64,000 nt of DNA, taken from Tenrec ecaudatus. Taxonomy: Eukaryota; Chordata; Mammalia; Afrosoricida; Tenrecidae. Below, piece after piece: positions 1,121-61,009 of the stretch (within the stretch, counting starts at the first letter, position 1; every line of letters starts with the position of its first letter). Location: contig NC_134536.1 in NCBI RefSeq assembly GCF_050624435.1, positions 5,894,758-5,958,757 of the forward strand, in the 5' to 3' direction. The notes under the pieces are model-generated. The model was given only the letters and a program-made list of their open reading frames with translations. It was not told where the DNA came from and made no database searches. The translations under genes and the position numbers were made by a program.

Positions 1121-1424
1121 TTTTTCAATTTTATGTTGTCCTAAGTCTTGGTATTATCAATGTTTACAGGATAAGGATACTATTAGTGTTGTTCTTAGTA
1201 TAAAACTATTAAAACCATGTAAGTATTTTTCATATTCATATTAATAATCAGACAGTATTTTTGACACATCTTTATTAAGGATACACATGATATTGAAAAT
1301 ATATCTTTTACTTAGGTGGGTTGGATCATTGTCTTAATTTGATACATATATCTGTGGATGAATCTTACTAGTTGCTGGAAAGAAAGAGGTTCAGTATAAT
1401 TTTACTCTTCCTCTTTATTTTTTA
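1121..1424. other. Unassigned AT-rich intron
   Basis: No gene, RNA or recognised repeat was seen here. Confidence 0.5.
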
Positions 1425-3328
1425 AAACATTTTATTAGGGGATCATACAACTCTTATCATAATCCATACATATCCATACATCAATTGTATAAAGCGCATC
1501 TGTACATTCTTTGCCCTAATCATTTTCAAAGCATTTGCTCTCCACTTAAGACCTTTGCATCAGGTCCTCTTTTTTCCCATCCCTCTCTGCTTCCCCCTCC
1601 CTCATGAGCCCGTGATAATTTATAAATTATTATTTTGTCATATCTTGCCCTATCCGGCATCTCCCTTCACCCCCTTTTCTGTTGTCCATCCCCCAGGGAG
1701 GAGGTCACTTGTAGATCCTTGTAATCGGTTCCCTCTTTCCAACATACTCACCCTCTACTCTCCCAGTATCGCCCCTCACACCCCTGGTCCTGAAGTTATC
1801 ATACACTCTGGATTCCCTGTGCCTCCAGCTCCTATATGCACCAGTGTACAACCTCTGCTCTATCCAGACTTGCAAGGTAGAATTCGGATCATGGTAGTTG
1901 GGGGAGAGGAAGCATTTAGGATCTGGGGGAAAGCTGTATTCTTCATCGGTGCTACATCGCACCCTGACTGACTCATCTCCTCCCCTAGACCCCTCTGTGA
2001 GGGGATCTCCAGTGGCCGACAAATGGGCTTTGGGTCTCCACTCTGCACTTCCCCCTTCATTCACTATGGTAAGATTTTTTTTTTTGATGATGCCTTATAC
2101 CTGATCCCTTTGACACCTCATGATCGCACAGGCTGGTGTGCTTCTTCCATGTGGGCTTTGTTACTTCTGAGCTAGATGGCCGCTTGTTTATTGTCAAGCC
2201 TTTAAGACCCCAGACACTATCTATTTTGACAGCTGGGCACCATCAGCTTTCTTCGCCACATTTGCTTATGCACTCATTTGTCCTCGGCGATCGTATCGTG
2301 GAGGTGTGCAGCCAATGATATGATTTTTTGTTCTTTGATGCCTGATAACTGATCCCTTCGGGACCACGTGATCACACAGGCTGGTGTGTTCTTCCATGTG
2401 GGCTTTGTTGCTTCTGAGCTAGATGGCCGCTTGTTTACCTTCAAGCCTTTAAGACCCCAGACGCTATCTCTTTTGATAGCCAGGCACCATCAGCTTTCTT
2501 CACCACATTTACTTGTTCACCCACTTTGGCTTCAGCAATTGTGTCGGGAAGGTGAGCATCATAGAATGCCAATTTAATAGAAGAAAGTATTCATGCATTG
2601 AGGGAGTGCTTGAGTAGAGGCTCAAGGTCCTTTCGCCACCTTAATACTAAACCTATAACTATAGACACATAGATCTATTTCCCCATCCTCATATATATAT
2701 ATTTGCATGTACATGTCTTTCTAGACCTCTGTAAATGCCCTTTGTCTTCTAGCTCTTTCCTCTATTTCCCTTGACTTTCCTCCTGCCCCACTATCATGCT
2801 CCGTCCCCACCCGGGTTACAGCTATACCTCTTCTTTACGTTACCTTACCCTTGATCATTCCCTACCAGGTTGCCACTGCCCCCTCACCACCAATTTGTAT
2901 CCCATGTTGTTCCCTTGTCCCTGGGTTAGTTAACACCACTTCCTTACCCCCCACCTCCCCTTATCTGAAGTCCCTGGAACTGTCGGTCCCATTGTTTTTC
3001 CTCCAGATAGTTCATCCAGCCTGTCTTATTTAGACAGACCTGTGGAGATAATAACATGCACAAAACAAGACAGAGGAAAACAAAGCAATAGTATACAACA
3101 TAACAGCAAACCACTGACAAAGAACAAAACAAAACACACCAAGAAAGAAAAGCTTAGTTCAAGGACCTTTTGTTGGTCTTTAGGAGTGTTTTCCAGTCCA
3201 GTCTGTTGGGGCACCACGCCAAAGTCCACTTTCAGCATTCCCTGGGGACCTTGATCCCACCACACGGAGGCAAAGCACTGGGGAGTGCAGTGGAACAGCA
3301 AGGGAATGGAGCTGCAAGGTCTTCTCTA
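1425..3328 (-). mobile_element. L1 3' end with tandemly doubled 3' UTR module
   Basis: Reverse-strand L1, 3' end at TTTTATTAGGGGATCATACA. Order from the 3' end: polypyrimidine block, GCAAGGTAGAATTCGGATCATG, two copies of a module of about 245 bp (2089-2336 and 2337-2575), then a region shared with 47040-47710, 5'-truncated near 3328. Open frames on either strand here (up to 138 codons) come from the low-complexity UTR and are not genes. Confidence 0.88.
2089..2575 (-). repeat. Tandem duplication inside L1 3' UTR
   Basis: Two adjacent units. Each starts GATGCCT and carries CAGGCTGGTGTG, CTTCCATGTGGGCTTTGTT, GAGCTAGATGGCCGCTTG, TTTAAGACCCCAGAC and GGCACCATCAGCTTTCTTC. The same pair is present at 46464-46950, while the older L1 at 196-1045 shows one unit. 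Confidence 0.85.
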
Positions 3329-6712: not shown

Positions 6713-7305
6713 TGATCCCCTCATAGAGGGGTTTAGGAGAGGAGATGGGTCAGTCAGGGTGCGATGTAGTACTGATGAAGAACACAGTTTCCCCCCAGAT
6801 TCTGGATGCTTCCTCCCCCCAACTACCATGATCCGAATTCTACCTTGCAGGACTGGATAGGGCAGAGGTTGTACACTAGTGCATATAGGAGCTGGAGGCA
6901 CAGGGAATCCAGGGTGGATGATACCTTCAGGACCAGGGGTGTGAGGGGCGATGTTGGGAGAGTGGAGGGTGAGTGGGTTGGAAAGGGGGAGCTGATTACA
7001 GGGATCCACATGTGACCTCCTCCCTGGCAGATGGACGGCAGGGAAGAGGGGGAAGGGAGACTCCGGATAGGGCAAAATATGACAAAATAACAATCTATAA
7101 ATTATCAAGGGCTCGTGAGGGAGGGGGGAGTGGGGAGGAAAGGGGAAAAAAAAGAGGACCTGATGCAAAGGGCTTAAGTGGAGAGCAAATGCTTTGAAAA
7201 TGGTTAGGCCAAAGAATGTACGGATGTGCTTTTTGCAATTGATGTATGTATATGTATGGATTGTGATAAGAGTTGTATGAGGCCCTAATAAAATGTAAAA
7301 AAAAA
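6713..7305 (+). mobile_element. 5'-truncated L1 3' end with target-site duplication
   Basis: Sense L1 3' UTR beginning TGATCCCCTCATAGAGGGG and ending AATAAA (7287-7292) plus a poly(A) run. ATCTCATG occurs directly before (6705-6712) and after (7306-7313) the element, within A-rich context, and is read as the target duplication. It is truncated inside the UTR, so it carries no ORF. Close in sequence to the L1 copies at 1425 and 45727, hence a fairly recent insertion. Confidence 0.9.
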
Positions 7306-7313
7306 ATCTCATG

Positions 7314-29705: not shown

Positions 29706-29987
29706 GAGTTACCTCACTTCTGTTTTCCGTGGGGGAGAACAGATGTACTGTGGACTGCCAGAGGAACTAACAAATCTGCCTTAGAATACAGCCAGAATGT
29801 GTCTACAGCCATACCAGCCCAAATGCGCCCGATCTCGTCTGATATCATAAGCTAAGTTGGGTTGGGCCTGGTTAGTACTTGGATGGGAGAATACAGCCAG
29901 AATGTTCCTTAGAGTAAACTTTACCTCTTGTACCTTGAACACTTGATCAGGTGGGACCAGTCCCTGGAGAAGGGGCATCATGCTTGG
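29706..29987 (+). mobile_element. RTE fragment carrying a 5S rRNA insertion
   Basis: Sense RTE: GTGGACTGCCAGAGGAACTA, then after the 5S insert TTCCTTAGAGTAAACTTTAC, GTGGGACCAGTCCCTGGAGA and GCATCATGCTTGGTG. It stops at the LTR-like block starting 29988. Confidence 0.85.
29801..29890 (+). pseudogene. 3'-truncated 5S rRNA retropseudogene
   Basis: Positions 1-90 of the 121-nt 5S rRNA, from GTCTACAGCC through GCGCCCGATCTCGTCTGAT and GGTTAGTACTTGGATGGGAG. About 11 of 90 bases differ from the human 5S sequence as I recall it. It stops inside the C-box of the internal Pol III promoter and lacks the last 31 nt and any terminator, so it is not a working gene. It is flanked by a perfect 17-bp direct repeat GAATACAGCCAGAATGT (29784-29800 and 29889-29905), the second copy overlapping its last GA. 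There is no poly(A) tail, as in tailless retropseudogenes made by LINE machinery. Confidence 0.93.
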
Positions 29988-30440
29988 TGTGGTAGATGAT
30001 TTGTTGTTGAGTAGACACTCCTCGCTAGGAGTGGAGTCAAACCTGTCAATCAAGTGGTAGTTTGATGACACCTCCTTGGAGGTATGGCCTGTTGTATAAG
30101 CGTGAAGGACTCTGGGAACTGCCTATCTCTCCACCCCTCAGCCTTCCTGCCTTCTGGAACTCTGTCTGCCTCAAGGAGTAGCCCCCATGTGGGCCATCTG
30201 GCCCCGAGAACTGCCGCCAGTCTGCCACGTTCCCACCACCCTTGGATCCATGTGACTCGGCACCCACTAGGCTGGGATCTACCTGCATTCCTGCATCATC
30301 TGTCTGTGTTGCTGGCATGTGGCTATGTGTGTCTGAAGAGGTACTGATGGGCTAGCATTGGACTTATGGGCTTGACTTGGACCGGGCTGGGATGCCCAGC
30401 CCTGATTGTGAGGACACTGCCAGACTAACCTAGAATCACC
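29988..30440 (-). mobile_element. Diverged LTR-like repeat
   Basis: Starts TGTGGTAG like the reversed LTR at 32375. It shares GTGGAGTCAAACCTGTCAAT and GACTTGGACCGGGCTGGGAT with that family, but the middle differs. Its far end is not clear. An old fossil, perhaps a sister subfamily. Confidence 0.5.
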
Positions 30441-30524: not shown

Positions 30525-30722
30525 CTAGGAGCCAGGGCGGTGTAGGGGGTTACATGTTGTTCTGCTAACCGCAAGATCCACAGTTCTAAATCACTAGCTG
30601 CTCCTTGGGAGAAAGACGAGGCTTTCTACTCCCATAGAAATGGACCGTTTCAGAAACCCACTGGCGAATTTCCGCTCTGTCCTGTGGAGTCCCTATGAGT
30701 CAGAACCAACTTGATTGAAGGT
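30525..30722 (+). mobile_element. AfroSINE
   Basis: AGCCAGGGCGGTGTAGGGGG, TTCTGCTAACCGCAAGATCC, GAGGCTTTCTACTCCCATAG, tail CCTATGAGTCAGAACCAACT. Confidence 0.87.
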
Positions 30723-45692: not shown

Positions 45693-46373
45693 TCTTTTCT
45701 TTCTTTCTTTTTTTTCCCTTTTCTTTTTTTACATTTTATTAGGGACTCATACAACTCTTATCACAATCCATACATATACATACATCAATTGTATAAAGCA
45801 CATTTGCACATTCCCTGCCCCAATCATTCTCAAAGCTTTTGCTCTCCACTTAAGCCCTTTGCATCAGGTCCTCTTTTTTTTCCCCTCCCCACCCGCTCCC
45901 CCCTCCCTCATGTGCCCTTTGTAATTTATACATCGTTATTTTGTCATATCTTGCTCTATCCGGAGTCTCCCTTCCCCGCCTTCTCTGCCGTCCCTCTCCC
46001 AGGGAGGAGGTCACATGTGGATCCCTGTAATCAGTTCCCCCTTTCCAACCCACTCACCCTACACTCTCCCAGCATCGCCCCTCACACCCTTGGTCCTGAA
46101 GGTATCATCCACCCTGGATTCCCTGTGCCTCCAGCCCTCATATGTACCAGTGTACAACCTCTGCCCTATCCAGCCCTGCAAGGTAGAATCCGGATCATGG
46201 TAGTTGGGGGGAGGAAGCATCCAGGATCTGGGGGAAAGTTGTGCTCTTCGTCGGTACTACCTTGCACCCTGACTGACCCATCTCCTCTCCTAAACCCCTC
46301 TATGAGGGGATCTCCAGTGGCCGACACTTGGGCCTTGGGTCTCCACTCTGCACTTCCCCCTTCATTCAATGTG

Positions 46374-46375
<2 letters not shown>

Positions 46376-46416
<41 letters not shown>

Positions 46417-46440
46417 TACATATATATACATATATATACA
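46376..46440. repeat. TA-rich microsatellite in L1 3' UTR
   Basis: A TA run followed by ACACATATATACATATATA-type repeats. The other L1 copies have only a short T-run at this point, so the expansion is specific to this copy. Confidence 0.9.
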
Positions 46441-46463
46441 CATGTTCTTTTTTATTTTTGCAT

Positions 46464-46950
46464 GATGCCTTATACCTGGTCCCCTTGGCACCTCGTGATT
46501 GCACTGGCCGGTGTGCTTCTTCCATGTGGGCTTTTTTGCTTCTGAGCTAGATGGCCACTTGTTTATCTTCAAGCCTTTAAGACCCCAGACACTATCTCTT
46601 TTGATATCCGGGCACCATCCGCTTTCTTCGCCACATTTGCTTATGCACCCATTTGTCTTCAGCGATCCTATCATGGAGGTGTGCAGCCAATGATATGATG
46701 ATTTTTTTTTCTTTGATGCCTGATAACTGATCCCTTTGGGATCACTCGCTCACTCAGGCTGGTGTGTTCTTCCATGTGGGCTTTGTTGCTTCTGAGCTAG
46801 ATGGCCGCTTGTTTATCTTCAAGCCTTTAAGACCCCAGTCACTATCTCTTTTGATAGCCGGGCACCATCAGCTTTCTTCACCACATTTATTTGTTCACCC
46901 ACTTTGGCTTCAGCAGTTGTGTCGGGAGAGTGAGCATCATAGAGTACCAA
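46464..46950 (-). repeat. Tandem duplication inside L1 3' UTR (second copy)
   Basis: Same two-unit arrangement as 2089-2575, each unit beginning GATGCCT. Confidence 0.85.
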
Positions 46951-47900
46951 TTTAATAAACGAAAGTATTCATGCATTGAGGGAGTGCTTGAGTAGAGGCC
47001 CAAGGTCCTTCCGCCACCTTAATATTAAACCTATAAATGTAGACAATTAGATCTATTTCCCCATCCTCGTATATATGTTTGCATGTACACGTCTTTGTCT
47101 AGACCTCCATAAATGTCCCTTGACTCCCAGCTCCTTCCTCCCTCTCCCTTGACTTTCCTCCTGCCCCACCACCGTGCTCCGTCCCCACCTGGGCTACAGC
47201 TATACCTCTTCTCTACGCAACCTTACCCTTGATCGTTCCCCATGAGGCCTGTCACTCCCCCCTCACTACCATTTTGGTCCCATGTTGTGCCCTTGTCCCT
47301 GTGTTTATTAACACCACTTCCTTACCCTCCGCCCCCTCCCCCACCCAGATCTGTCTGTCCCCCCGAAACTGTCTGTCCTATTGTTTTTCCTCCAGATAGT
47401 TCATCCAGCCTGTCCTATTCAGACAGACCTGTGGAGACACTAGCATGCATGAAAACAAGACAGAGGAAAACAAAGCAACAGTATACAACCAGACAATAAA
47501 ACAACGAAAACAAACCACTGACAAAGAACAAAACAAAACACTTCACAAAAGAAAGGCTTGTAGTTCCTTCAAGGATCGTTTGCTGGCCCTTAGGAGCGTT
47601 TTCCAGTCCAGTCTGTTGGGGCACAACACCCTGGCCCCAAAGTCCACTTTCAGCATTCCCTGGGGACCTTGCCACTCCATTCCCTTGCTGTTCCACTGCA
47701 CTCCCCCAGTGCTTTGCCTCGGTGTGGTGGGATCAGGTCAGGTGCAATTCCCACATTGTGTCTCCGGTGCTGTCCCCTGTATCGCCCTTAGTCACTGAGG
47801 GGCATCATGTCTCATAGTAGGGCCAGCCATGTTGTTCTCTCTGTGGACTGGCTGCTCTACTCAGGAATATCATCATCACGGCCTAGTGGGCCAGGCCCAT

Positions 47901-58547: not shown

Positions 58548-59295
58548 TGGATCAAAACCAGCCTGTGTGATCATGAGGTGTCAACTGGATCAGATAGCAG
58601 GCATCAAAAGATCCAAAACAAAAAATGATATCTATGTGAAAAACGGGGGTTGGAGTGGAGACTCAAAGCCCATCTGTAGACAATTGGACATCCCCCCCAC
58701 AGAAGGATTACCAGAAAGGGACAATTCAGCCAGGGTGCAGTATAGCATCAAACCATGCAATATTCCTCTAGCCCCTGAATGCTTCCTCCCCACCCAACTA
58801 CCATGACCCAGTTCTACCTTACAAATCTAGCTAGACCGGAGTGTGCACATTGGTACAGACAGGAGATCTTGACACATTGAATTCAGGAGAGATAAAACCC
58901 TCAGAAACAGTAGTGAGAGTAGCGATATCATGCGGGTAGGGGAATGATGGGGAGGGGGCAGAGGAAAGGGGGAGAGAGGGGAAACCAATCCCAAGTTTGG
59001 ATATATAGGCTAACCCCCTAGCGGGAACAATAAAAGAAATTTGGGTGAAGGGAGACAATGTACGGTGTAAGATATGAAATAAAAACAATGATATATAATT
59101 GATCAAGGATTTATGAGGGTGGGTGAATGAGGGAGCAAGGGAGGGAAAAAAAGAGGAGCTGTTACCAAGGACTCAAGTAGAAAGAAAAGGTTTTGGAAAT
59201 GTAGATGTAAACATATGTACAAGTGTGCTTAATACAGTTGAATGATGGATTGTCTTAAAATGTGTAAGAGCCCCCCAATAAAATGATTAATTTAA
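58548..59295 (+). mobile_element. 5'-truncated L1 3' end, older subfamily
   Basis: Sense L1 3' UTR from CCAGCCTGTGTGATCATGAG through ACTACCATGACCCAGTTCTA and a purine-rich block to AATAAA (59277-59282) and an A-rich tail. Resembles the copy at 196-1045 more than the young ones. No sure target duplication. Confidence 0.85.
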
Positions 59296-61009
59296 AAAAA
59301 AGATACAAAAACTGTCATGATCACGTTTTACTTTGCCTCGTTATGTGGGTCAGACATGGTGAACAACCCTTGCTGAGCAGATTTATCCTTCAGTTTCTCA
59401 TGTGAGAGATAGATACCATCATCTGAAGGCCGGACTGGGGCTGCAGGCATTGCTGCCCCAGTGGTAAATCGCATGGAAGGTGAGCTGGTGCTCCCTGTGG
59501 ATTGCGGGCCTTATCTCCTCTCTGTTTGGACCTCCCACAGGACTGCGGCTGTACTGTCCGCCTGGCATAATAGCTGACTACCCTGGAATGAGTGATCCAA
59601 AAGTCCAAGGGCAAAGCTATACTGCTTTCTATGTCCCAGCCTCCGCAGGCACCAGCACTGGTACTACTGCCATATTGTATGCCATCCAGGGCTAGCCAAG
59701 AATCAGCATGAGAAGGGACAGTACAATGGTCTGAGCTGTGCATCATTGAGGGTCATCTTGAAAGCTTCCTCTTGGCAGGAGAGCTCGCTGTGCAATGGTG
59801 AAAGGGCATAGGGGGGCTCTCTGGGGAAATGTATGCCTTCTATGAGGTCGGTAATCTCCTATGTGGACATTTCATTGCCAATGTCTCATCACTGAAAAGA
59901 GGCATTACGGCCAAGATGTAGTATAGAGTGGTCACTTGCCTGTATCCAGATCCTACAGGCCACAAGTGACACGTGGTGTCAAGGTGATTTCCTTAGGAAA
60001 ATGGGACGCCTGTGTTTGGATGACGGTGAGCACAATAACCTCTCCAGGCCGGCGTCATGATTCGCTCTGCATGCTAAGTGCTGGTTTTCACATGGCACCA
60101 GAGAGCTCTCAGTAATTTAGTGATGTGTTCCCTTACACCGAGGCAAAATGAATGCATTTCCCTGGGCGTGCATGCGATAAGGTCTGGGGATGTATCACAA
60201 ATGCCATCTTTTCTACAGGGAAGCCGTTTATCTGTAATGGCACTATGATGGCTTACTTTAAGTGTCCAAAATGCCACTTGCAGAAAAAAATCCAGAAAGG
60301 GCTGCTCCTTGTGGATTGCAGCCGCACGGCCCTGCCTGTAATAGTGACGAGTGAATCCATTACAATCCCACTGAGGAGTCAGTTGACCTTAAACACAATC
60401 GGCATCAGGGGAGCTACTCCCTGATGGAGATCATTTAGAGGAATACATATTTACGTACAGCACCCTAAGCTCTGAAGAAGCAATCCTTCTCTATCATGAT
60501 TGTTTATTGTGGTTCGTCTGAACATTTCCAGGGCAAGTTTCCCACTCAGCAATGTGTCTGCGCTTTGTCTGCTGACACTCTTGACAGGCCCTTGAGTGTA
60601 ACAGTGTGCTGTTCATGTCCTCTTGGTTCCCAACTTCCAGGTGCCCATCTCACCTGGCCCTGCTGCCACTTGGACTTTGTTTTGCTCGTTAATTTGTTGT
60701 GTGTCCTTCTAGTCTCTTGTGGGTGTCTGTTCTAAGAAGTATGTTCCCATGGGTGGTAGAGTTCACTTCCAAGGCCTGTCTACTGATCCCTGAGAGTGGG
60801 TGCAGTTTGAGGTTCGAGGCTATCTAAAGTGATTACAGTTTGAGGTTCGAGGCTGTCCTTGCAAGGATTCCACCTGTCTCTGGTTTTTTATGATTTTGAA
60901 TTTTGTTCTACACTCCCACCCCTGCCACCCTCTGTTCAGGACTTTCCGTCAGGATCCCACAGAAAGGTCAGACATGGGAGCCGGCCACCATTTAATTCTA
61001 CTGGACTCA
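59296..61009. other. Unassigned intron
   Basis: Long stretch without recognised repeats. TTTGAGGTTCGAGGCT occurs twice (60808 and 60839), a short direct repeat with a 31-bp period. Open frames lack known domains. Confidence 0.45.

Follow-up and report, generated by a model that had tools for sequence, protein, structure and literature searches.

A 5S rRNA fragment at positions 29801..29890 of the window, the whole 64,000-nucleotide stretch of DNA analysed here, located at C65:5894758-5958757 in a genome of 3.92 Gb, is very probably a tailless 5S rRNA retropseudogene that was produced by LINE target-primed reverse transcription, most likely that of L1, with priming inside a loop of the RNA. 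The fragment lies within an older LINE copy between two perfect 18-bp direct repeats, and LINE paralogues elsewhere in the genome are uninterrupted at the same site. This copy is real and, within a class that has been described before, ordinary.

Anatomy of the 5S rRNA piece and its flanking repeat

The locus comprises the following features:

29745..29800, + strand: RTE-type LINE portion preceding the insertion on its 5' side, based on genome matches and an alignment of 19 copies
29783..29800, + strand: target-site duplication, copy 1, 18 bp, identical to 29888-29905; 19 LINE paralogues lack 5S at this site
29801..29890, + strand: 5S rRNA retropseudogene, nt 1-90 of 119, 79/90 identical to the 5S array gene of the genome; Rfam, 33 bits
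29888..29905, + strand: target-site duplication, copy 2, the first 3 bases of which (AGA) are also 5S nt 88-90
29906..30000, + strand: RTE-type LINE continuation, roughly 90 bases or more, based on alignment of the empty-site join to paralogues

Positions 29801-29890 were aligned with the 119-nt gene of the 5S array located on C91 in the same genome. The alignment was gapless over nt 1-90, with 88% identity, 11 differences and no indel; four of the 11 differences are at CpG sites and seven are non-CpG changes. The array itself (L002-L008) lies at about 12.94-13.05 Mb with a unit of about 1.7 kb, and the seven genes compared were identical. The Rfam 5S_rRNA model matched 29805-29906 with 33 bits (E 2.8e-5), the gathering score being 38, under which a fragment may fall; no match was returned when the whole window was scanned at gathering thresholds. 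The possibility that the piece had been copied from a duplicate nearby or of higher similarity was rejected, as the best non-self matches reached 89% and the array genes 88% among the best 40 of 284 candidates scored. With 89% as the highest identity in that set, the insert seems to have acquired its changes on its own and not from a variant source.

The 3' truncation of the piece falls in loop D, and nt 87-90 form a tetraloop without base pairs in the fold of the 5S rRNA of this genome, a predicted rather than solved structure. No A-run was detected at the 3' end of the piece, where nt 90 passes directly into the duplication. We found no sign of a function for this copy.

The direct repeat AGAATACAGCCAGAATGT is identical at 18 of 18 positions between the two copies that flank the 5S piece. 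With up to 3 mismatches allowed, no further site for this 18-mer was found on either strand of the window, and 4 mismatches yielded two places. AGA is common to the end of the 5S piece (nt 88-90) and to the start of the 3' repeat copy; therefore the insert proper measures 87 to 90 nt and its boundary cannot be placed more exactly. As a control for chance, we scored 928 mismatched pairings of a 5' with a 3' flank, drawn from 31 5S copies. The direct-repeat score of this locus was 18 vs a best score of 12 among the control pairs. At the non-CpG rate of the insert, the 36 repeat bases should carry about 3 differences, and a complete lack of differences should arise in about 3-5% of cases (our own arithmetic). 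A perfect repeat beside seven non-CpG changes in 90 insert bases is thus in mild tension, which we attribute to chance because it was the perfect repeat that led to the selection of this locus.

The initial annotation of this DNA had described the first 90 nt of 5S rRNA, devoid of poly(A) and bounded by a perfect direct repeat of 17 bp from 29784. This reading is supported and, apart from one base, correct: the repeat is perfect, measures 18 bp and starts at 29783.

The uninterrupted target site in a LINE

A genome search using the 100 bases before the insert returned 40 matches including the query itself (best 40 of 140 candidates scored). The LINE is thus matched at least 39 times elsewhere in the genome, with 80-93% identity over the matched parts. 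Most matches start at about query base 42-53, and the host LINE copy seems to be 5'-truncated, with homology from near 29745. The best-scoring 19 of the 39 other matches listed were used as a paralogue set.

When the insert and one repeat were removed, the alignment ran at least 5 bases beyond the junction in 15 of the 19 paralogues, as anticipated by the initial annotation for an insertion into a LINE, and the insert-free join extended at least 67 bases beyond the junction in 7 of the 19. Two of the remaining four joins ended 3-4 bases beyond the junction and two before it. When the insert was kept, paralogue alignments either broke into two parts or ended no more than 4 bases from the junction. 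Furthermore, all 19 paralogues contain a 13-base core of the site where it is expected, with no more than 3 mismatches and without 5S; L047 has a second core match with 3 mismatches located 38 bases upstream. The consensus of the 19 fetched copies contains the core once, and the LINE copy of the window matches this consensus at 126 of 146 aligned columns (gaps excluded). That the LINE itself carries the repeat twice, which had been named at the outset as an alternative source of the duplication, was rejected on the basis of these 19 fetched paralogues.

Downstream of the site, the consensus frame, read by eye, encodes LTYFGHVIRRDQSLEKDIMLGKVEG. We take this peptide to be part of an RTE/Bov-B ORF2, hence the RTE label given to the host LINE, and 29906..30000 presumably represents a C-terminal ORF2-like region. 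A Pfam search with this 25-residue peptide gave no match. Two further 5S copies, L070 and L094 (the latter by eye only), lie in RTE-like sequence, and the target of L070 is located about 20-25 bases upstream of the site of the window in the same LINE segment.

Truncated 5S copies elsewhere in the genome

A search pattern spanning 5S nt 70-90, in which 2 mismatches at most were allowed, occurred 343 times in the genome, tandem array included, vs once for the reversed-pattern control. Of the 343 places, 100 were listed, and 54 of these 100 are in the array; the first 30 exact non-array places were fetched and include this locus. In at least 59 exact copies of the genome, nt 90 is followed by a base that is not C; 25 of these copies are among the loci analysed and 34 were left out, as were copies with 1-2 mismatches. 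Local alignments ended at nt 90 in 22 of the 30 places, at nt 91 in 3 and at nt 119 in 2, a sample that cannot show earlier breaks given the nt 70-90 requirement. The three places that align otherwise end at 99, end at 105 or carry one internal deletion. The latter is L079, in which nt 1-41 are joined to about nt 69-90 and which has its own flanking repeat with a score of 11. L067 and L077 reach nt 119, with A-rich sequence behind both.

A flanking repeat scoring at least 9 was found at 16 of the 30 places, including this locus, vs 6 of the 928 mismatched flank pairs. Addition of L012, recovered by 5S similarity search, brings this to 17 of 31 copies, leaving 14 without such a repeat. A score of at least 12 was reached by 12 of the 31 copies vs 1 of the 928 control pairs. 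In 14 of the 17 repeat-bearing copies, the repeat starts within the 5S end itself, in its final 3-4 nucleotides. These counts retain L068 and L069, which are one duplicated event counted twice in both the 30 and the 31, L062, whose duplication is less sure as it lies in a local tandem repeat, and L071 and L076, which match 5S only at nt 68-91 and nt 41-90, respectively.

A second sample of nine places was anchored at the 5' end, using one CpG-decayed form of that end, and was blind to the 3' end. Seven of these copies are truncated, with ends at 23, 35, 42, 42, 88, 91 and 92, and two are full-length (nt 119) with A-tails, one of them being L010 again. A duplication was seen by eye in 5 of the 7 truncated copies; a sixth copy, L096, has a weak one of about 6 letters, and none is visible in L095.

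Class membership, priming and enzyme

The class of tailless retropseudogenes is documented by Noll et al. (2015; PMC5322556), whose human 5S examples number 555, and by Schmitz et al. (2004) as cited therein. The sections of Noll et al. used here report breaks mostly in loops, a target complementary to the RNA end, internal priming by L1 as the favored route, and low abundance in elephant. They delimit the class by a 5' end missing at most 5 nt, a 3' truncation of at least 10 nt, a duplication of 8-35 nt with at least 70% identity, and an identity to the source RNA above 69%. Further traits of the class are the lack of an oligo(A) tail, a breakpoint in a loop or single-stranded region, and a target complementary to the RNA end over 2-18 nt. 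The copy in the window begins with the first nucleotide of 5S, breaks off at nt 87-90 of 119 in bases unpaired in the predicted fold, carries an 18-nt duplication with 100% identity, is 88% identical to its source (79/90), lacks an oligo(A) tail and overlaps its target by the 3 nt AGA. Compared with the tailless 5S group as presented in those sections, it is likewise 5'-complete and 3'-truncated, with duplication, loop break and target complementarity and without oligo(A). We saw no structural difference, the copy of the window being in an afrotherian-like genome and within an RTE.

In human 5S/LINE-1 chimeras, the 5S segment is reported to be truncated at 46 and 90, in loops C and D, with target-site duplications in 20 of 27 cases (PMC13174262, in part). 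The piece described here shares the truncation at nt 90 in loop D; however, it stands alone with no L1 joined to it. Full-length 5S retropseudogenes of this genome (L001, L010, which is also L091, and L097) derive from the same source RNA and show direct repeats by eye at their flanks, but they reach nt 119 and carry an A-tail, whereas the copy of the window does neither. Taken alone, this copy is a molecular fossil of little consequence, with modest use as a presence/absence marker in phylogeny. It also belongs to a set of at least 59 exact-match copies in the genome from which the LINE enzyme that primes on the 5S loop could be identified.

Whereas the anatomy, the uninterrupted paralogous site, the shared AGA and the recurrence of such anatomy at other loci were observed, we infer the enzyme and the order of the biochemical steps as follows. 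A LINE endonuclease, most likely that of L1, would have nicked the older RTE copy between CTT and AGAATA, and the freed DNA end TCT-3' would have annealed to loop D of the 5S rRNA at AGA (nt 88-90) instead of to a poly(A) tail. Reverse transcription would then have proceeded from AGA up to the 5' terminus of the RNA, a second-strand cut at a distance of 15-18 bp would have generated the duplication, and private mutations would have been gathered by the copy afterwards.

Alternatively, an enzymatic cut in loop D could have yielded a 90-nt 5S RNA that was subsequently copied, rather than priming having occurred internally on intact 5S rRNA. The recurrence of the breakpoint at one loop among 5S copies agrees with this route, and targeted processing has been raised for 5S fragments, in the case of position 46 (PMC13174262, in part). 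However, such truncated RNAs were sought in human libraries and none were found, according to the sections of Noll et al. used here (PMC5322556), and the AGA common to the target and the 5S end in most cases suits either route. We therefore regard a prior cut as unlikely.

We favor L1 over other enzymes because the insertion site is CTT|AGAATA, because three full-length 5S copies carry A-tails at TT|AAGA or CT|AAGA sites, and because published work links the occurrence of the class to L1 (PMC5322556, in part). The site agrees only partly with the target motif TT/WAAAAWW. In a set of 13 target sites with the cut set by us at AGA (slightly outside the scored repeat in L060 and L080, and with L079, a 14th site with overlap, left out), T occurs at -1 in six and at -2 in six, with no G at either position, a pattern that is only weakly L1-like. 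These 13 sites are too thin a sample to separate L1 from RTE.

The same event could instead have been carried out by RTE (Bov-B-like) machinery. The host looks afrotherian judging by its repeats. RTE is the dominant system in afrotherians according to the consulted parts of Noll et al. (PMC5322556). Furthermore, T is frequent at -8 (8/13) and -6 (7/13) upstream of the cut, loosely resembling a T-stretch that is reported to lie about ten bases upstream in plant RTE and, in closely similar form, in Bov-B (PMC13295347, in part). Against this, CTT|AGAATA is close to the L1 motif, L001, L010/L091 and L097 are full-length with A-tails at TT|AAGA or CT|AAGA by eye, as are L1 products, and the tailless class tracks L1 activity across vertebrates (PMC5322556, in part). 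An RTE origin of this copy is thus improbable, and the broader proposal that RTE rather than L1 made the loop-D-truncated 5S copies of this genome is slightly more doubtful still; if true, it would break the stated strict link of tailless retropseudogenes to L1.

Membership in a 5S-derived SINE family, with a tail lost or too diverged to be seen, was an alternative named in the initial annotation. Vertebrate 5S-derived SINEs exist (references in PMC13174262, in part), and many 5S copies of this genome stop at the same nucleotide. However, such a family implies many copies with a common 3' module, and comparison of 200-base 3' flanks revealed no common tail among the 31 copies. Other 5S copies end at 23, 35, 42 or 119, and most of the 17 repeat-bearing copies have a repeat that begins directly at the 5S end. 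Only three pairs of 3' flanks matched: L068/L069, which are one duplicated region, L070 and this locus, which share a LINE segment, and L061/L066, which match over 27 bases at different distances. On this sample of 31 copies we rejected a 5S SINE family, which is highly improbable. Just as remote is a chance 18-bp repeat, or double-strand break repair that captured 5S RNA or DNA: endonuclease-independent capture is known in principle, but the score of 18 vs a maximum of 12 in 928 controls rules against a chance repeat, and the same anatomy recurs at many 5S loci of the genome.

The tailless 5S copy shares the window with other repeats. A SINE-like piece at 30540-30715 seems to resemble AfroSINE, which hints at an afrotherian host. 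Self-comparison of the window revealed a long repeat with several copies on both strands, 64-92% alike (229-1039, 1408-3253, 6714-7306, 45714-47671 and 58557-59303), three of which carry open frames with the common peptide LQGRIRIMVVGG. By eye, the same long repeat flanks the 5S copies L087 and L088. Some 5' flanks of 5S copies also match one another, as do those of L087 and L088 over 140 columns, both of which lie within one repeat.
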